From: Armatimonadota bacterium
Lineage (GTDB): Bacteria; Armatimonadota; UBA5829; DTJY01
Length of the DNA: 37,182 nt
Assembly (NCBI GenBank): GCA_023511795.1
Contig: JAIMAU010000019.1
Location: 1 to 37,182 of the forward strand
Direction of reading: 5' to 3'
The translations under genes were made by a program, and so were the position numbers. The notes below the pieces were generated by a model. That model saw only the letters and a program-made list of their open reading frames with translations, did no database searches and was not told where the DNA came from. This document shows positions 27,000 through 35,982 of this stretch, piece by piece; within the stretch, counting starts at the first letter, position 1, and the number at the start of each line of letters is the position of its first letter.

Positions 27000-27029
27000 T
27001 TGCGCTGATTCCAATTTCTTCGCTATTAT
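27000..27029 (+). promoter_or_regulatory. Promoter of the second sugar-binding protein gene, apparently leaderless
   Basis: TTGCGC (27000-27005), 18 bases, TATTAT (27024-27029). The start codon at 27039 lies nine bases after the -10 box and no ribosome-binding site is visible, which suggests leaderless translation. Confidence 0.45.
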
Positions 27030-27038
27030 TTAACCACA

Positions 27039-28382
27039 ATGGAGTATGAAAGCAAACTCAGTCGGCTCATCAGCATTTTGGGTATTGCGTTTGGTGCCTT
27101 AGCTACTATAAGTATTGGCGTTTATCTAGTAGCAACAATTAATCCAAGAATACCTGGCAAGACTGTTATTCGTTGGGTAGTAGACCCAAATCCAATCCGC
27201 AAGGAACAAATCAAGCTTTTTGAGTCAAAATATAGGAACATTCACGTAATCAATGATCCCGGGGCTGAGCCCCAGCGACTTCTGACACAACTTGCTGGCG
27301 GCGTCCCGCCCGACGTAATGGCGCTCTACAATCCGCAGACCATTCGACTTTTTGCAAAAAATGATGTTCTTCTAGACCTGCGGCCTTATGTAAAAAAATA
27401 CAAGCTTCCGATAGAAAAGCTATATCCTGGTCTTAAACCTTATATTTATTACGAGAACAAAATCGTTGGTGTGCCTGAGAACTGCGGGCCATATGTGCTT
27501 TTCTACAATAAGAGAATGTTTCGGGAGGCTGGGATTCCTTACCCCAAGCCTGATTGGACTTGGGATGAATGTCTAGAGGTGGCGAAGAAGCTTACAAAAT
27601 ATCAAGTAGTCGGCGGTCGAAAGGTGCCCATTCAGAAAGGAATTTACGTTGGCACACATGATTGGTGGTTTTTCATTTGGATGTATGGTGGCCATCTTTA
27701 CAGTCCGGATGGTAAGAGATGCATAATGAACGATGAGAAGGTAAAGAAGGGCATTCGATTCTGGGCCGACTTAAGGCTTAAGCACCATGTAACGCCGACG
27801 CCGAGCGAAGCGCAGAGCATGGCGCCTACCGGTGGATGGGGCACCGACGCACTCTTGTTCCGCGAGTCGAAGGTGGCGATGATGGTATCCGGAAGGTGGT
27901 TATGCATACAATACAGGGAGCAAAAGGACCTAGAGTGGGACGTGACGAGCGTGCCGCACGGCCCAAACAGGGTAACACTTCTGGCTAGCAAGTGTTACTC
28001 AATCCCGAAGACCAGCCGCCATAGGCATGAGGCGCTGATATTTATAAAGCATCTGCTCAGCAAGGAAAATCAACTTTTGGTGGCAAACTACGGCGATGGG
28101 ATACCAACGCTTCAAGACCCAGAGATTGAAAAGGCATTTGCGTATAACCCAAAATATCCGAACGAGCGGAACAATCTGCTTCACATTCAGGAGATGAAAT
28201 ATGCGCGGGTTTCCGAAAGCTCGCCCTATATCAACGTATTGGACCAGGATGCAATAATGGCGCGGGAGTTCGACAAAATGTGGCTTGGCGAACAGAGTCC
28301 CGATAAGACATGCGACGAAATTGCTCGGCAGATAAACGCAGTCATAAGGCGCAACCTAGCGAACCCAAATTTTCTGGATTAG
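27039..28382 (+). CDS. Sugar ABC transporter substrate-binding protein (family 1)
   Basis: A 447-residue extracellular solute-binding protein. Residues about 12-34 are a hydrophobic signal/anchor without a lipobox cysteine, so it is either anchored by an uncleaved helix or secreted. The mature part carries IRWVVDPNPIRKEQIKLFE, LAGGVPPDVMALYN, GVPENCGPYVLFYNKRMFREAGIPYPK and SKVAMMVSGRW, typical of the family, plus DWTWDECLEVAKKL. It is followed by two permease genes (30 bases and then an 8-base overlap), giving a classical MalEFG-type importer without its ATPase; these often share one unlinked MsmX/UgpC ATPase. Substrate not determined, probably an oligosaccharide. Confidence 0.92.
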   Translation: MEYESKLSRLISILGIAFGALATISIGVYLVATINPRIPGKTVIRWVVDPNPIRKEQIKLFESKYRNIHVINDPGAEPQRLLTQLAGGVPPDVMALYNPQTIRLFAKNDVLLDLRPYVKKYKLPIEKLYPGLKPYIYYENKIVGVPENCGPYVLFYNKRMFREAGIPYPKPDWTWDECLEVAKKLTKYQVVGGRKVPIQKGIYVGTHDWWFFIWMYGGHLYSPDGKRCIMNDEKVKKGIRFWADLRLKHHVTPTPSEAQSMAPTGGWGTDALLFRESKVAMMVSGRWLCIQYREQKDLEWDVTSVPHGPNRVTLLASKCYSIPKTSRHRHEALIFIKHLLSKENQLLVANYGDGIPTLQDPEIEKAFAYNPKYPNERNNLLHIQEMKYARVSESSPYINVLDQDAIMAREFDKMWLGEQSPDKTCDEIARQINAVIRRNLANPNFLD

Positions 28383-28412
28383 TTCGTACAAGTCGAAGGG
28401 TTTATTAAATCA

Positions 28413-29579
28413 ATGAGACGTTTATCTTACAAGACGAAAGAGGCATTGGCTGCATACGCTTTTCTTGCTCCCAATTTCCTAGGCTTCTTGGCGTTCACGA
28501 GCATTCCAGTTGTGGTTTCTTTTGTTATGGCTTTCACCCATTGGAATATCTTCAAGCAGCCGTTTTGGGTTGGGCTAGAAAATTTCAAAAACCTGCTGTG
28601 GTTTCATCGAGAGGGAGGCCGCCTTGTGCCGAACGACCCATTCTTTTGGCAGTACGTCTACAATACTGTCTACCTTATGGCAGGGATTCCGATTGGCATG
28701 GCAGGCAGCCTGATTGTGGCGCTGATGATGAATCAGCGGATGCGGGGAATCGTTGTGTTTCGTACGATTTATTTTCTGCCGACTGTATGCTCGGGCGTCG
28801 CTCTATTGATACTGTGGAAGTACCTTTATAATAGCGATATTGGTCTAATCAACAAAACCATACGCCTTGTGGGCGCGTTCATTTTCGCAAAAAAGCCTGT
28901 TGCAATTGGCGCAACGGTATTTGCGGCGCTCATTTTTGGCGTCGTTGTAATTGGATTAATAGCGGCTTTGTTGGCGTTCTTGCAGTGGCTTTCCGAGAAA
29001 ATTCGGTTTACCTGGCCCGAAGGTTTGTTTCGAGCGCTAATGTTTGCATCTGGGGCGTGCATTTTCATTCTTATCGGTATATATGGCAGGGCATTCTATA
29101 ATGCGCTCAGCATGTTTTTTGCCGAACCGCCAGATTGGCTGGGGACAGTTCAATGGGCAAAGCCATCTTTGATTCTAATGAGCCTTTGGGGTGGTCTTGG
29201 CGGGTACAACATGATTCTTTATCTTGCCGCGCTTCAGGGGGTGCCAAGCTCGTATTATGAGGCGGCTGAGATAGACGGTGCTGGTCCATGGCAGAAGTTT
29301 TGGGCGGTCACTTGGCCAATGATTAGCCCAACTACATTTTTTATTTTAGTGATGAGCATTATTGGCGGATTCCAAGGTGGATTCATGATTGCAAACGTCA
29401 TGACGGGCGGTGGGCCAGCTGGGAGCACCACTACTATTGAGTATTATCTTTACCAAACCGCATTTGAGAAGTTCAATATGGGCTATGCATGCTCGATAGC
29501 TTGGTTCTTGTTTGCCGTGATACTTGTGATAACTCTTCTCACATGGAAGCTTGGCGGAAAAGTGGTGACCTATGAATAG
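28413..29579 (+). CDS. Sugar ABC transporter permease, MalF type, with membrane insert
   Basis: A 388-residue inner-membrane permease, longer than the roughly 300 residues usual for the family. It starts AYAFLAPNFLGFLAF after a short cytoplasmic tail. The ATPase-contact EAA loop reads YEAAEIDGAGPWQKFWAVTWPMI (Glu, Ala, Ala, Gly). The extra length lies between about residues 155 and 245, where two hydrophobic segments separated by a charged loop interrupt the normal core before WAKPSLILMSLWGGLG. It is translated together with the next permease: its last eight bases overlap that gene's ATG. Confidence 0.93.
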   Translation: MRRLSYKTKEALAAYAFLAPNFLGFLAFTSIPVVVSFVMAFTHWNIFKQPFWVGLENFKNLLWFHREGGRLVPNDPFFWQYVYNTVYLMAGIPIGMAGSLIVALMMNQRMRGIVVFRTIYFLPTVCSGVALLILWKYLYNSDIGLINKTIRLVGAFIFAKKPVAIGATVFAALIFGVVVIGLIAALLAFLQWLSEKIRFTWPEGLFRALMFASGACIFILIGIYGRAFYNALSMFFAEPPDWLGTVQWAKPSLILMSLWGGLGGYNMILYLAALQGVPSSYYEAAEIDGAGPWQKFWAVTWPMISPTTFFILVMSIIGGFQGGFMIANVMTGGGPAGSTTTIEYYLYQTAFEKFNMGYACSIAWFLFAVILVITLLTWKLGGKVVTYE

Positions 29580-30447
29580 GGTAGGTTTGGGTATAAAAGT
29601 TGGCTTTTACATCGTTTTGAGCATTGGCGCAATAACAATGATTATTCCATTTCTTTGGATGGTTTTTACTTCTATCAAACAGCCTCACGAGGTATTTTCC
29701 GCTACCGGTGCGATTAAATTCCTTCCTGAGCATTTTTTCTGGCGGGATACAGTTATAAATGGTGAGAAAATTCGTGCGTGGTGGGGCAATTATCCTGATG
29801 CTTGGAGGGAGATCAACTTTTTCAGGCTTTACTTGTCAAGCATATTTGTAGCGGTAGTTGGAACATTTGGCCAGGTGCTGACAAGTTCGATGGCGGCTTA
29901 TGCATTCGCTAGGCTGAGCTTCCCTGGACGTGATAAGCTCTTTTTTGGATATCTTGCAACGATGATGATACCGAGTTCTGTGACAATGATTCCGGTTTTT
30001 GTGATAATGAAGCACTTAGGTTGGATCAACACATATCAAGCGCTCATCATCCCGGGGTTGTTTAGTGCGTATGGGACATTCATGCTCAGGCAATTCTTTA
30101 TGGGTCTTCCGGTGGAGCTTGAAGATGCAGCGAAGATTGACGGTTCGGGTTATATTGGGATATGGTCGGGGATTATTCTGCCGCTTGCCAAGCCGGCGTT
30201 GGCGACATTGACGACGTTCACTTTCATGGGATTTTGGGGAAGTTACATGTGGCCTTTGGTTGTAACAGTAACCGAGGCACCGAGGACGCTTCCGATTGGA
30301 CTGCGTTATTTTGTTGGCCAGCATGCGACGAATTACACTCAGCTCATGGCTGCTTCTGTGATTGCGCTCATCCCGGTGTTGCTTCTTTTTGTTTTCAATC
30401 AGAGATACTTTGTAGAGGGAATCAAGCTCCAGGGGCTGAAAGGCTGA
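29572..30447 (+). CDS. Sugar ABC transporter permease, MalG type
   Basis: The second channel subunit, 291 residues with about six membrane segments. Near the N-terminus is the usual IPFLWMVFTSIKQPHEVF segment; the EAA loop reads LEDAAKIDGSGYIGIWSGIILPLAKP, followed by the conserved FVEGIKLQGLKG at the end. The start ATG overlaps the MalF-type gene's stop, so the two are coupled. A frameshifted relative of its EAA region survives at 32275-32412 beyond the Rhs fragments, which suggests recombination or duplication around this gene. Confidence 0.95.
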   Translation: MNRVGLGIKVGFYIVLSIGAITMIIPFLWMVFTSIKQPHEVFSATGAIKFLPEHFFWRDTVINGEKIRAWWGNYPDAWREINFFRLYLSSIFVAVVGTFGQVLTSSMAAYAFARLSFPGRDKLFFGYLATMMIPSSVTMIPVFVIMKHLGWINTYQALIIPGLFSAYGTFMLRQFFMGLPVELEDAAKIDGSGYIGIWSGIILPLAKPALATLTTFTFMGFWGSYMWPLVVTVTEAPRTLPIGLRYFVGQHATNYTQLMAASVIALIPVLLLFVFNQRYFVEGIKLQGLKG

Positions 30448-30471
30448 TTGGCAGAGGCGGGAAGAGCCTTT
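30439..30471 (+). terminator. Weak terminator-like hairpin after the importer genes
   Basis: AAAGGCT (30439-30445) can pair with AGCCTTT (30465-30471) across a 19-base loop, with only a short T-run at the end. The large loop and lack of a clear U-tract make it doubtful. Confidence 0.25.
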
Positions 30472-30476
30472 TGGAT

Positions 30477-30686
30477 TCAGCAAATGTTTAATTTCGGGGA
30501 TGCCACGTCATACTTCTTACTATCCAGGTTGCCAACCCAGTCATACCCGAAGGTTATCTGCGCCTGCCCAGGATATGTCACCGCCACAAGCCGGCTGTTT
30601 TCGTCGTATGAGTAGTACGTCGTGCCATTGGAATCCACCATCCTAAGCGGATTCCCTGACCCGTCCCGCTCAACTTTGTCGTTACA
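30477..30686 (-). pseudogene. Rhs/YD-repeat fragment
   Basis: Reverse-strand frame directly continuing the frame of the lipoprotein-like gene after its TGA (30687-30689). It encodes about 69 residues, including NGTTYYSYDENSRLVAVTYPG and ITFGYDWVGN, which are YD repeats of Rhs proteins, and then ends at TGA 30477-30479. There is no start codon or ribosome-binding site for it and no full repeat array, so it is a broken piece of an Rhs core left by recombination. Confidence 0.8.
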
Positions 30687-31493
30687 TCATTTCTTTTTCT
30701 TCAATTTTCTTATAAGTTGCTTGCATTCAGTGCTGAGAATCTCCTTGTCCCACAACTCAATCAGTCTGTATGAATCCCGCAAATCTTCCTGCAACATATC
30801 CTTCTCCATCTTGGCAATTGCTGACTTGTCCTTCAGCTTTTTAATTTGTTCTACATGACGTTTTCCCTTGTCAACCACTGGGGTTATGTGTCTATCAACG
30901 AATCTCCTTGCAGCCTTCGAGCATGAAGTCGCAGCACGCGCGCTATCCATGTCGCCAAGTGCTTCTAGTTCCTTTGCTACCAATTTCCAGGTACAGAGCC
31001 ACAATGCGGTGCCATTGATTATTTCTAAAGTATTTGGCACCTGAGCGTGTACTATTTGTCGTGCAATGTCCAAGTTGACTAGAAGCACCTGCAAGGCTAA
31101 TGTTTGCTTCCCAGTCCGGCTGAGCTCAGCCGCATGCTCCCTATTCCTTCTGTAGATCTCTCGTAGCGTCCACATTGCAGGCATGACTTGGCTGGCATAA
31201 TAATGAGTAAAAGCGTCATAATCCCTATATGCAGATTCAGGTCTAAGACGAAGCTCGCGCGTGCTAAGCTTACGAACCAACGCTATCCCTTCCTCAATCC
31301 GCCCAGCCTTATATAGCTCCAATGCACGTGTGTAATCCTGCATCACCGGGTTAAGGTGTCTTACGCTATCCCGTTTGCAGCCACGGTTATCTCCCTGCTT
31401 GTCTACTTTTACGCCATTGTTACGACAGCCACTCCAAAACAGCAAGACGACCGCTAGCAGCAAAAATACCGTAGACCAACTTCGTTTTTTCAT
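30687..31493 (-). CDS. Predicted lipoprotein, candidate Rhs-associated immunity protein, in frame with the Rhs tip
   Basis: From ATG 31493 a lipoprotein-like signal is visible: MKKRSW, a hydrophobic stretch, then WSGC (Cys23), with Trp at the -3 position being atypical. The rest of the 268 residues is charged and probably helical, with ALELYKAGRIEEGIALVRKL resembling a TPR unit, and a C-terminus rich in Lys. No enzymatic motif is seen. The frame is continuous with the Rhs Cys-rich tip upstream; no stop codon separates them and there is only a weak ribosome-binding site before this ATG. It is either a separate gene whose partner lost its stop codon, or part of one fused product with an internal membrane segment. 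Its place after an Rhs tip is where immunity genes usually lie, but immunity function is inference. Confidence 0.5.
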   Translation of the reverse strand: MKKRSWSTVFLLLAVVLLFWSGCRNNGVKVDKQGDNRGCKRDSVRHLNPVMQDYTRALELYKAGRIEEGIALVRKLSTRELRLRPESAYRDYDAFTHYYASQVMPAMWTLREIYRRNREHAAELSRTGKQTLALQVLLVNLDIARQIVHAQVPNTLEIINGTALWLCTWKLVAKELEALGDMDSARAATSCSKAARRFVDRHITPVVDKGKRHVEQIKKLKDKSAIAKMEKDMLQEDLRDSYRLIELWDKEILSTECKQLIRKLKKKK

Positions 31494-32207
31494 TTTTTCG
31501 CATCCGTATAAAGATACACACTTTTCGTAGCAATTCTCCTGTTGATTGTAGCATTTGGTTTGTCCTCCTGATTGCCATCCTTCGATTAGCATACAGCAAG
31601 CATATTTAACATCACAGCAATCCTGACACTGAGTTGTATCATTTTGAGGCCTGTCGCATGCAGTCGTACCTGCGCCGTCGCAGGTCGGGCTTTCAGGGAA
31701 GATTGTACAGAAATACTTTAAGCAGGTCTCTTTGAGCAATCCTTTCCCTACGCATTTGACCTTGTATCCGGTTGGATCAGAGTATACAAGGGGTTCATTG
31801 AGAGCGTAAGCGTAGATAGATAGCACCTGCTTTATAGCATCCCTCTGCCCGAACCTTCCAACCTCCGGGTCGTAGAAGCGGATGCCGAGTTGTAACAAGG
31901 GCAAGTTGGCATCCTGGACGTGAGTATAATACCCCAACTGCCCTACGAATTGGTAGGGCTGGTCAGTGGAGCCTGTATGCTCGATATGCTCCATGAGCTC
32001 CCCCCAGGCATCGTATGTGTACTCATCTGTGATGTTGCCATCACTGTCAGTAAGCAGTCTTGTCGACCCAAGTGCGCCGAAGTGATAGTACCTCATCTCT
32101 CCGGCGCCCGTCAGTCGCGCAATTAGCTCGCCTCCTGGCTCTCGAATGTAGTATGCCGACCCACCAAAACCTACCTTTTTGCATTCTAGCCTTAAGCAGG
32201 TAATCTG
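31494..32207 (-). pseudogene. Rhs core C-terminus with Cys-rich variable tip, 5'-truncated
   Basis: The reverse-strand frame is open from a stop codon at 32208-32210 with no plausible start codon or ribosome-binding site at its head. It encodes YYIREPGGELIARL, RYYHFGALGSTRLLTD, LGIRFYDPEVGRFGQRD and YAYALNEPLVYSDPTGY, the standard Rhs-associated core that ends just before the variable toxin tip. The tip here (about 90 residues after TGY) holds 14 cysteines, e.g. QDCCDV, YACCML and CYEKCVSLYGC, suggesting a disulfide- or metal-rich domain rather than a known nuclease. The core repeats, normally hundreds of residues, are missing. An orphan tip: the protein is probably not made as such, though a toxin relic or a cassette for recombination is possible. 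Confidence 0.75.
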
Positions 32208-32274
32208 TCAATAGCTGAGTACCTAATAGCAGTTTTTTAAAGTTTTAACTAATGTAGAGCCGAACCCTTTGTGC

Positions 32275-32412
32275 TAGCTTTGATTTTTCCTTGCCGGTAC
32301 TTCTGTCTACAGCACTTGCCGTTGCCGTGCGGTCTCTCGGGGCTCGAAGATGCCGCGGAGGTTGAAAGGTCAGGGGATATGGCCTGGAGTCATTCTGCCT
32401 CTCAGCAAGCCG
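32275..32412 (+). pseudogene. Decayed fragment of a MalG-type permease gene
   Basis: This stretch resembles the EAA region of the intact permease at 29572-30447 in both DNA and broken translation. One frame reads ALIFPC and GLEDAAEVERSG; one base later the frame reads IWPGVILPLSKP and then a TAG, against LEDAAKIDGSG and IWSGIILPLAKP in the intact gene. The bases around 32373-32411 match those around 30158-30195 with few differences. Frameshifts and stops show it is not functional. It is oriented like the intact gene and lies on the other side of the Rhs fragments. The rest of 32208-32521 shows nothing recognisable. Confidence 0.65.
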
Positions 32413-32521
32413 TAGCTTACTATGCCTTCGCTTTTTTATACAGCATTATGAAAATCGCATGCTTTATTTCTTAGCGTCTAAATTTACGATTGCAGAAGTT
32501 CTCGTTGGCGACAACCCCTTT

Positions 32522-34063
32522 TTAGCCCCAAAGTTTCCTGTCTAGACTGCGATATTGAACAGCTTCTGCAACATGTGCCAGTGCAATGTTTTCAACACCT
32601 TCTAGGTCTGCAATCGTCCGAGCGAGTTTGAGAATTCGATCGTAGGCGCGCGCTGAGAGGTTGAGCTGGTTGATAGCTGTCCGCAGGAGGTCTTTTACAT
32701 CATCTTTTGGGGTGCAAAACTTCCGTATTTGTTTGCCATTCATTTGGGCGTTGCAAAATGTGCCTTTCCCATCGTTTGAAAATCTCTTCCTTTGAATTTC
32801 TCGGGCGCGCTCTACCCTGGCACGGATTGTTGCTGAGCTTTCGCCGGTCGGGTGGTTCATTAGTTCTTGGTCTTTTAAACGTGGCACCTCGATATGAATG
32901 TCTATTCGGTCGAGCAATGGCCCTGAGATCCGTTGAAGGTACTTATTGATTATCCCTGGATTGCAAGTACAAGCTCTAGTTGGGTCCGAGTAAAAGCCGC
33001 AAGGGCAGGGGTTCATGGCTGCGACAAGCATAAACCTCGCCGGATAGGTGAGAGAGCCGGCTACTCTGCTGATGGTCACAGTTCCATCTTCCAGCGGTTG
33101 GCGAAGGGTTTCTAGCACGTCTCGACGGAACTCAGGCAATTCGTCAAGGAATAGGACACCATGATGCGCAAGGCTCACTTCTCCAGGCACAGGGTATGAG
33201 CCGCCGCCACTCAGTCCAGCGTTCGATATTGTGTGGTGTGGGGCTCGAAAAGGACGGGTTGTTATTAAAGCTGATTGTGAATCCATTCGTCCGCTTACGC
33301 TGAAAAGCTTTGTGGTCTCGAGCGCCTCATCCAGAGTCATTGGGGGCAGAATTGTTGGAATTCGACGGGCTAGCATGGTCTTGCCGCTCCCCGGAGGTCC
33401 AATCATTAGAATATTATGTCCGCCAGCAGCGGCGACTTCCAGCGCTCGTTTTACGTGTTCCTGGCCTTTTACATCGGAGAAATCTATATCAAATCCAGGT
33501 TGGTCGAGCATGAACTTGGAGGGGTCTAGTTTCACAGGGTCAAATGACCTGCTGCCGTCCATGAATTGGAGCACGTCGATTAGGGAATTAACGGGGTAAA
33601 CTTCTAGCCCTTCAACGACAGCTGCCTCGTAAGTGTTTGCTTCGGGAACAATCATGTACTTTTTCTTAGCTTCTTTCGCCGCCAAAGCCATTGGCAAGAC
33701 GCCGTGAACAGATCGCACAAGGCCATCCAGCGAGAGCTCGCCCACGACCATCATGTCTGGAAGCGATTCCAACGATACTTGTCCGCTTGCAGCGAGGATT
33801 CCGATGGCAATTGGGAGATCATAAATCGGGCCAACCTTTTTGATGTCTGCCGGTGCAAGGTTGATAGTGACGCGCTTGTTCCAAGGAAAATCATAGCCAG
33901 TATTTCGGACGGCAGCGCGAACACGCTCGCGAGATTCTTGGACAGCGGCGTCAGGGAGGCCGACAATGGTGAAAGAGGGACTTCCCATGGCAACGTCCAC
34001 TTCGACTTCGACAACGTAGGCATCTACTCCAAGTATTGCACTTGAATCTACTCGAACGAGCAT
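32522..34063 (-). CDS. comM: ComM/YifB family Mg-chelatase-like AAA+ protein
   Basis: A 513-residue cytoplasmic AAA+ ATPase. Family members act as hexameric helicases that promote branch migration during natural transformation. The start ATG (34061-34063) has GGAGGT ten bases upstream. Architecture: an N-terminal Lon-like domain ([21 protein letters not shown], about residues 30-180), then [20 protein letters not shown] and a Walker A motif IGPPGSGKT (Lys228), Walker [12 protein letters not shown], zinc-ribbon-like [17 protein letters not shown], and a C-terminal helical lid ([21 protein letters not shown]). Full length. Its end faces the degraded permease/Rhs region. It may make the strain recombination-proficient, which would fit the gene debris next to it, but that is only suggestive. 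Confidence 0.95.
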
Positions 34064-34237
34064 GGGTGACCTCCGGCATAGAAATTAAGAAGCCTGCCCT
34101 CAAAATGGCAAGTCTTAATGGCAAGAATTATGGATTACTCCTCAGGCAAGGAAACAGTTGGGGCATTATAGCAGTATATGGTAGAGCGTTGCAATGGCAA
34201 AATTCCAAAAATATCTGCAATTTATTGTTTTGTCTCA

Positions 34238-34266
34238 TGGCATTGAGAGAAAAATAGGCGTATAAT
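34238..34266 (+). promoter_or_regulatory. Candidate promoter of the NlpC/P60 gene
   Basis: TATAAT at 34261-34266 is perfect; the -35 box TGGCAT (34238-34243) at 17 bases is weak. The ribosome-binding site CGGAGGT follows at 34295-34301. Confidence 0.45.
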
Positions 34267-34305
34267 TAAGAACAAAGTTTTCGGTAGTTTTGTTCGGAGG
34301 TTAAC

Positions 34306-35118
34306 GTGCAAAACGCAGATGGAGTAATAATTAAAAATGTCACAGGGCTGTTTGCTGAAAAGAAAACAGATTCGGAACAGGTAACCCAGGCTATAATGGG
34401 ACAGCCGGTGAAAATTGAGAAGGATGAAGGCGATTGGCTTTGGGTCCAAACGTGGGATACCTACCATGGTTGGGTGCAAAGCCGATGGGTCAGTCGGAAT
34501 ATCCCGAACCCTTCGCGCATGGCAATCGTGACTTCGCTTTTTACTAATGCGCTCAAAGAGCCAGCCCCGGATGCCGAAATTTGGACAATTTTGGTGATTA
34601 CTACCAGCCTCGAACTCCTGGGAATCGAGGAAAAATTTGTGCGGGTTCGTCTCCCCAACGGCGCTCAGGCATGGGTAAATGCCAAAGATATCGAGATACG
34701 TCCGGCGGGCGAACAACCGCTACCCATCGGGCCCATCGGCCAGGATTTGGTGCGCACAGCAAAGCGTTTTCTGGGTGTGCCTTACCTGTGGGGAGGCACT
34801 AGCCCATTCGGCATTGATTGCTCAGGGTTTGTGCAGCTTGTCTACCGCTTGAATGGCATCAAGCTTCTTCGAGATGCTCATATGCAGGCGGAGGATCCAA
34901 GGGCGATTCCTATTGAAAAGACCGACCTCCAACCAGGAGATTTGGTATTCTTCGCCGGAGGACAGGATAAATCAAGAATCACTCATGTGGGAATGGCGTG
35001 CGGCGATGGCACGTTCATTCATTCATCGGGCGGGGCAGTCGGTGTAACGATAAACAACTTATCCGACCATCCCTACGACCAAAACTATTGGGGTGCACGG
35101 CGAATGCCTGGAAATTAG
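34306..35118 (+). CDS. NlpC/P60 cysteine peptidase with SH3-like domains (YkfC-like)
   Basis: A 270-residue protein with no signal peptide, so probably cytoplasmic. The GTG start at 34306 is preceded by CGGAGG at a good distance. Two SH3b-like segments occupy about residues 1-130 (ITGLFAEKK-type with DWLWVQTWDTYHGWVQSRW and then a second NAL...VRLPNGAQAWVNAKD). The NlpC/P60 catalytic domain follows: PYLWGGTSPFGIDCSGF (Cys172), THVGM (His227) and FIHSSGG (His239), a complete triad. YkfC-type enzymes cleave gamma-D-glutamyl bonds in recycled muropeptides. A single gene facing the oxidoreductase subunit. Confidence 0.92.
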   Translation: MQNADGVIIKNVTGLFAEKKTDSEQVTQAIMGQPVKIEKDEGDWLWVQTWDTYHGWVQSRWVSRNIPNPSRMAIVTSLFTNALKEPAPDAEIWTILVITTSLELLGIEEKFVRVRLPNGAQAWVNAKDIEIRPAGEQPLPIGPIGQDLVRTAKRFLGVPYLWGGTSPFGIDCSGFVQLVYRLNGIKLLRDAHMQAEDPRAIPIEKTDLQPGDLVFFAGGQDKSRITHVGMACGDGTFIHSSGGAVGVTINNLSDHPYDQNYWGARRMPGN

Positions 35119-35126
35119 GCCACTGG

Positions 35127-35672
35127 CTACTGTACAGTTGCCGCCAAGTCTGCGCCTTTTAAAAGCGCCTGTTTGTTCAACGGAATGAACTTATGTCTAT
35201 GAGGAGGCAGCACCTGGGCTAGCGAATCAATAAGCGAGTCTAAGGAAACAACTTTAGTCAGCGCCGCATAGGCTCCAAGCATAATCATATTTGCCACGCG
35301 AATGTTTCCTAACTCTTCTGCGCGAACGTTGGCGTCGATGGCAAAGACTTTGCAGTCACCGCGAACTATCGAGAGGTCAATTAGCGATCTGTTGACCAAT
35401 AATAGCCCCCCCGGCTTGACGCATGGTTGGAACTTGCTGAAGAGGAACTGGTGCATTCCAATAAGGGTATCGGGATGTGCAGAAATAGGTGAGCCAATTT
35501 CCTCAGATGAAATAATAACAGTGCAGTCGGCAGTACCTCCTCGGGCTTCTGGTCCATAAGATGGAAACCAAACGACCTCTAGGCCTTCAGTCATACCTGC
35601 GTGGGCGAGAAGCTGCCCCATTATCATAATCCCCTGGCCCCCGGTCCCCGCCATGATTACTTCTTCATGCAT
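35127..35672 (-). CDS. 2-oxoacid:acceptor oxidoreductase, gamma subunit (orphan)
   Basis: A 181-residue protein matching the gamma subunit of ferredoxin-dependent 2-oxoacid oxidoreductases (KorC/VorC/PorG type), which hold the dinucleotide/CoA-contact part of the complex in anaerobes. It starts EEVIMAGTGGQGIMIMGQLLAHAG, with FPSYGPEARGGTADCTVI and ANMIMLGAYAALT as further family marks. The ATG at 35672 has GGGAGG nearby. The alpha, beta and delta (ferredoxin) subunit genes that normally adjoin it are absent: upstream are only tRNA-Pro and intergenic sequence. Either the other subunits are elsewhere or the operon was broken here. The substrate cannot be read from this subunit. Confidence 0.9.
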   Translation of the reverse strand: MHEEVIMAGTGGQGIMIMGQLLAHAGMTEGLEVVWFPSYGPEARGGTADCTVIISSEEIGSPISAHPDTLIGMHQFLFSKFQPCVKPGGLLLVNRSLIDLSIVRGDCKVFAIDANVRAEELGNIRVANMIMLGAYAALTKVVSLDSLIDSLAQVLPPHRHKFIPLNKQALLKGADLAATVQ

Positions 35673-35866
35673 TTCTTGCCTCCCAAACGCGCCGCCCGGT
35701 TAATGAATGCGGTTTCTTAGCAAAAAGTCAAGATTGGAGTGAAGCCATTTTTACTTGCCTTAGGCACCGCCAGTAGCCCTGAGTCGGAAGTGGCAAGTAC
35801 AACGTTGGCTTTTGCTTTATTGTAGGATAAATACTGAGAAGCAGTCAAACAAGATAAATATCGGCA

Positions 35867-35895
35867 TTGATTTTCTTTGTCGGAAGTGGTATAAT
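35867..35895 (+). promoter_or_regulatory. Promoter of tRNA-Pro
   Basis: TTGATT (35867-35872), 17 bases, TATAAT (35890-35895), ending nine bases before the tRNA. Confidence 0.7.
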
Positions 35896-35904
35896 TAGCG
35901 TAGT

Positions 35905-35982
35905 CGGGGTGTAGCGCAGTTTGGTTAGCGCGCGTGTTTTGGGAACACGAGGTCGCCGGTTCGAGTCCGGCCACCCCGACCA
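35905..35982 (+). tRNA. tRNA-Pro (anticodon UGG)
   Basis: Complete cloverleaf: acceptor CGGGGTG pairs with CACCCCG, D-arm GCGC...GCGC with GGTTA, anticodon stem CGTGT/ACACG around loop TTTGGGA (anticodon TGG), T-arm GCCGG-TTCGAGT-CCGGC, discriminator A and encoded CCA. Confidence 0.97.

Follow-up and report, generated by a model that had tools for sequence, protein, structure and literature searches.

A likely orphan Rhs tip-immunity cassette in partial decay, with a cysteine-rich tip and a lipoprotein-like partner in an Armatimonadota genome

The window is a DNA stretch of 37,182 nucleotides and makes up a whole contig (C19) of a 3.1-Mb Armatimonadota genome (G000) that is 97.6% complete. 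On its minus strand, an open reading frame (ORF) runs from 32207 to a stop codon at 30689-30687 and joins an Rhs core end, a cysteine-rich tip and a lipoprotein-like protein, with no stop between the last two. An in-frame stop lies directly upstream at 32208-32210, and the first ATG, at 32096, would give a product of 469 amino acids. Chance alone would not be expected to keep a frame open for 506 codons. The features of the locus are as follows.

31767..32207, minus strand: Rhs core end, truncated at its 5' end and lacking the Rhs filament (TIGR03696, upstream stop, identity to genome G001)
31494..31766, minus strand: cysteine-rich tip of 91 amino acids with 14 cysteines, counted by eye (ORF residues 111-201)
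31485..31500, minus strand: junction of tip and partner, with a run of six A and the partner ATG in the tip frame, without a stop (sequence reading)
30687..31493, minus strand: lipoprotein-like partner of 268 amino acids (signal peptide, lipobox at Cys23, helical domain)
30483..30672, minus strand: downstream Rhs YD-repeat remnant, outside the ORF and common with G001 (PF05593 and BLASTN)
30673..31838, minus strand: exchanged cassette made of the last core codons, the tip and the partner (borders by BLASTN, supplemented by inspection of L068 3701-6000)

The Rhs core-end model TIGR03696 matches ORF residues 28-110 with 53.9 bits against a cut-off of 32.5. The core end terminates in NEPLVYSDPTGY, in which the boundary motif P-x4-D-P-x-G is present as PLVYSDPTGY. 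The initial annotation had described a tip of about 90 residues with 14 cysteines after an Rhs core end, which both the model match and the count of 14 in 91 residues bear out. It had also seen the tip run without a stop into MKKRSW...WSGC and a helical domain of 245 residues, and this was borne out too. The partner starts at M202 (31493), begins with MKKRSWSTVFLLLAVVLLFWSGC and continues into 245 residues that AlphaFold2 models as helical. In the downstream remnant, which the coordinates of the initial annotation also cover, PF05593 matches at 30564-30665(-) with an E value of 1.6e-7.

A congeneric genome, G001, carries the same locus with a different content. By BLASTN, 27001-30672 and 32452-35982 match G001 at 95-96% DNA identity, and the flanks of the differing part are 93-96% identical. 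The Rhs core end is common to both genomes at 31839-32289 (85% DNA identity), and the downstream repeat remnant is common (95% DNA identity) up to base 30672, about 15 bases past the lipoprotein stop. Between these borders, 30673-31838 is wholly different in G001, though the locus is the same. There, the cassette (L068 3872-5612, G001:C10) encodes a 109-residue tip with nine cysteines and its own stop, followed in another frame by a 158-residue partner with multiple membrane spans; this pair is unrelated to the pair of the window. Since tip and partner differ between a shared core end and a shared Rhs remnant, 30673-31838 is a movable tip-partner cassette, and tip and partner have been exchanged as a unit at one locus between related genomes. 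The same kind of exchange is known for rhs loci in Yersinia (PMC3150448) and Serratia (PMC10539506). Compared between G000 and G001, the core fragment has a dN/dS of 0.15/0.35, but this was computed over a mixture of exchanged and shared parts and was given no weight.

The core fragment of the window has neither a delivery part nor a start region, as seen from the upstream stop and from the rest of G000, where we found Rhs fragments only. No full-length Rhs gene was found in G000, although assembly gaps could hide one. The only second core end, besides small Rhs pieces, is on C25. This remnant (G000:C25:1169-1780(-), L002) lies near a contig end and has a different cysteine-containing tip.

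Relatives of the tip were sought in 291 genomes with profiles built from the first hits, which gave 14 relatives in 12 other Armatimonadota genomes. Their alignment has in common two C-x3-C motifs, GNPC and CQxCC-x2-KY-x-CC. One match of the first profile, L029 (G266), was rejected as a wrong-frame chance match, since it was gone with the larger profile. Nearly all the relatives have their own stop soon after the last cysteine; the L031 tip has an earlier in-frame stop, and the L032 tip is separated from its own core by a frame break. No match to the tip was found in the viral contigs and plasmids searched. The tip has no Pfam, NCBIfam or PDB match and thus no predicted activity, which counts against its being a toxin tip with an immunity partner. 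Its fold gave no significant Foldseek or VIA-align match (best Foldseek PDB E value 1.9, best VIA-align Z 4.7), and the best Foldseek PDB match of the fused model had an E value of 0.15. Phospholipase A2 was considered because the tip has CC-xx-K-Y-x-C, and the tip aligns with the secretory phospholipase A2 fold 7ygk at Z 3.2 over 69 residues (rmsd 5.2). An active phospholipase A2 was ruled out because the catalytic His-Asp of CC-xx-HD-x-C is absent: the window has CC-DV-KY-A-C, and the relatives conserve neither His nor Asp.

Other Rhs ends were observed in Armatimonadota genomes. A 1533-aa Rhs protein, L104 (G017:C150), has a C-x2-CC tip end (DCQSCCRCAVSG) and is possibly a distant member of the family. 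In G275, the Rhs end next to the family member in L025 (L025 6379-7560) bears a tip that resembles L,D-transpeptidases (HGGRGDPTYPTLGCIRTS); the cell wall is the expected target of this tip type. G100 (L092-L099) has 51 matches to the Rhs core end, grouped in several arrays, and some of its tips recur in nearly identical form at separate places.

Compared to its relatives, the tip of the window is damaged. Nearly all relatives have a helix 1 with C-x3-C and a helix 2 with C-x3-C ahead of the point where the window tip starts, while the window passes from DPTGY directly to KVKC. The loss amounts to about 35 residues, three cysteines among them, and leaves the frame unbroken. The intact L033 tip, as modelled by AlphaFold2 (pLDDT 84.6, pTM 0.72), has helix 14-26 and the larger share of helix 32-40 in the part that the window has lost.

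The joined frame itself could be an assembly or sequencing artefact, in which case the organism would have an ordinary two-gene order and a homopolymer error at the run of six A would have erased the stop. The junction does sit in an indel-prone A run, intact relatives carry a stop at this position, and the tip ends only a few codons from the partner ATG after its last aligned cysteine. We nevertheless regard an artefact as rather unlikely. Real decay is under way at the locus, since the tip has independent damage with its frame kept and the Rhs core is cut short. Alternatively, the fusion could be functional, with the tip held in check by an antidote that is covalently attached to it and anchored in the membrane, or with fused and separate products made by slippage on the A run. 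The frame remained open, and in a model of the fused chain both parts keep confident predicted folds (pLDDT 79.6, with linker residues 89-133 mostly low). However, none of the 14 relatives is fused, and the fused product would have its signal peptide in mid-chain. The tip is also short of a conserved helical segment, and G000 yielded no full-length Rhs gene that could carry it. A functional fusion is, therefore, highly improbable, and the new membrane-anchored effector design by fusion that the initial annotation had offered as its second option is not upheld. The fusion is most likely decay: the lost delivery part, the lost helices and the lost stop together fit a decaying orphan.

The partner has the N-terminus of a lipoprotein. 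Lipoproteins of the PS00013 type have a basic N-terminus, a hydrophobic stretch and a lipobox Cys at residues 15-35. By eye, the partner has a basic MKKR start, a hydrophobic stretch and the lipobox LLFWSGC with its Cys at residue 23; the N-terminal hydrophobic score is 3.19. We take the Trp at -3 of the lipobox to be non-canonical, though the permissive PROSITE pattern admits Trp. In a Pfam scan at E <= 1, the partner gave only sub-threshold matches to Imm21 and 4HB_MCP_1, and no Imm family exceeded its cut-off. Padloc gave no match, a PDB sequence search gave nothing significant, and no close homologs of the lipoprotein were found in viral_contigs, genome_contigs or plasmids. A relative of its helical domain is the extracytoplasmic part of L009 (1063-2046, G043; E 5e-7), and other exported proteins show a weaker relationship. 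L009 is an anti-sigma-like protein with a Cys/His-containing N-terminus and a transmembrane (TM) segment, and it adjoins a sigma-factor-like gene. Its extracytoplasmic domain is a possible cellular source of the lipoprotein immunity domain. The partner model also resembles 14-3-3/TPR-like helical cups (best Z 10.4, rmsd 2.8 over 135 residues), which is below the informative level for helical proteins and may reflect only a common helical arrangement.

The initial annotation had proposed a search for intact relatives with a stop between tip and lipoprotein, and a stop between tip and partner was found in nearly all of the 14. In nearly all relatives, the next gene starts from -30 to +75 nt from the tip stop; in two cases (L028, L032) the tip stop and the partner start overlap as ATGA, and in a few cases the partner start codon was picked by inspection. 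A hydrophobic N-terminal signal or membrane segment was present in 16/16 partners, one of which belongs to a neighbouring pair, compared to 22/75 control ORFs. Since nearly all tip relatives are followed by an exported or membrane-anchored partner, the tip-partner pair is conserved. The best match to the pair of the window is the L033 tip in G017 (same class), whose partner is similar to the window lipoprotein along a stretch of 32 residues (E 0.001) and then gives way to Rhs debris. A lack of homologous Rhs-lipoprotein pairs would have spoken against the initial annotation, but pairs of this kind do exist.

Among the partners, at least three mutually unrelated types can be told apart, which were named by reading sequences, except for that of the window. 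All-helical partners occur in the window, L024, L025, L026 and L032-L034; beta-propeller-like partners in L027 (twice), L028, L031 and L050; and short beta-type partners in L051 and L052. It is unusual for one tip family to have at least three unrelated partner types, and this speaks against a strict toxin-antidote pair. Another reading is that the tip is not a toxin and is instead a cysteine-rich metal-binding or structural module shown by Rhs, with the exported partner as an assembly or anchoring factor. The several unrelated partner folds would suit such a module, as would the regular CxxxC spacings along the helices and a weak structural likeness to copper-storage proteins (Z 3.0-3.3). These Z scores, however, are at noise level, and the location, the exchange with an unrelated pair and the displaced-tip arrays are the pattern of polymorphic toxins. 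We find this module decidedly unlikely. The lipoprotein-like partner is probably an immunity protein.

We also surveyed other Rhs tips in six of the relatives' genomes, with automatic gene picking and manual de-duplication. Among these, 12 of the 13 Cys-rich tips (at least 4% cysteine) have an exported or membrane-anchored partner, versus 4 of the 14 Cys-poor tips (Fisher p 0.0013). The tip of L094 (G100:C12, ~872, minus strand) has an alpha/beta-hydrolase-like motif (VAHSNGG) and is Cys-poor yet has an exported partner. Full-length Rhs proteins of the relatives have Sec-type signal peptides at the N-terminus. The association of cysteine content with the partner, together with the Sec signals, points to a tip that is oxidised and lies outside the cytoplasm, paired with an antidote that is exported. 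The tip apparently acts in the cell envelope.

The likely explanation is that the locus holds an Rhs tip-immunity cassette that is orphaned and partly decayed; its tip would act outside the cytoplasm, and its lipoprotein would be the exported immunity protein. In intact systems, a Sec-exported Rhs shell would bear the disulfide-rich helical tip at its C-terminus, and this tip would act extracytoplasmically, within a neighbour's cell envelope. The gene immediately following the tip would supply the partner, which has a signal peptide or is a lipoprotein; placed in the envelope of the producing cell, it would neutralise the tip. In G000, recombination between flanking Rhs sequences may have brought the cassette into a core fragment without a delivery part. 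The window tip would afterwards have shed its first helices, and an indel or substitution at or near the run of six A would have removed the boundary stop and joined the two frames. The partner of the window has an internal ATG and a signal peptide and lacks the upstream stop, while in nearly all relatives it is separately translatable. Translation of the lipoprotein may still initiate from its own ATG, possibly aided by GGA about nine bases upstream. With its frame intact, the lipoprotein could have been retained as orphan immunity. Orphan CT/immunity modules are known from rhs and cdi loci, and in many of them the immunity gene can be expressed (PMC3150448). An orphan toxin-immunity cassette with a lost boundary stop, the first option of the initial annotation, fits all the comparative data, including the same-locus exchange with G001 and the unfused relatives.

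The closest known systems are the orphan rhs-CT/rhsI and cdiA-CT/cdiI modules (PMC3150448; Rhs C-terminal displacement, PMC2935791). They likewise have a displaced core-end fragment with the P-x4-D-P-x-G boundary, a variable tip with its partner directly behind, exchange at one locus between relatives and loss of the delivery part. Those modules are from Enterobacteria, whereas the window is from Armatimonadota and has a Cys-rich tip, an exported or lipoprotein partner and joined frames. Secreted, TM and lipoprotein immunity proteins are already known from polymorphic toxins (PMC3482391). Imm65, the lipoprotein immunity of Tox-JAB-1 toxins, is also a gene with signal peptide and lipobox behind the tip (PMC3482391), but it is alpha+beta while the window partner is all-helical and matches no Pfam Imm family model above its cut-off, and the tips are unrelated. 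Secreted polymorphic toxins with L,D-peptidase tips are similar in their predicted cell-surface action and exported (secreted or TM) immunity (PMC3482391); in contrast, the Cys-rich tip of the window has no recognised catalytic motif. In the literature searched, we did not find fused toxin-immunity proteins, and in the open literature searched we found almost no work on Rhs in Armatimonadota.

The fusion in the window exposes a Cys-rich helical Rhs tip family in at least 10 Armatimonadota genera, with exported partners and without a match in the family and structure libraries searched. Among the surveyed genomes, the cysteine content of the tip tracks the export of its partner. If these tips are toxins, they would form a disulfide-stabilised, envelope-acting class in Armatimonadota.
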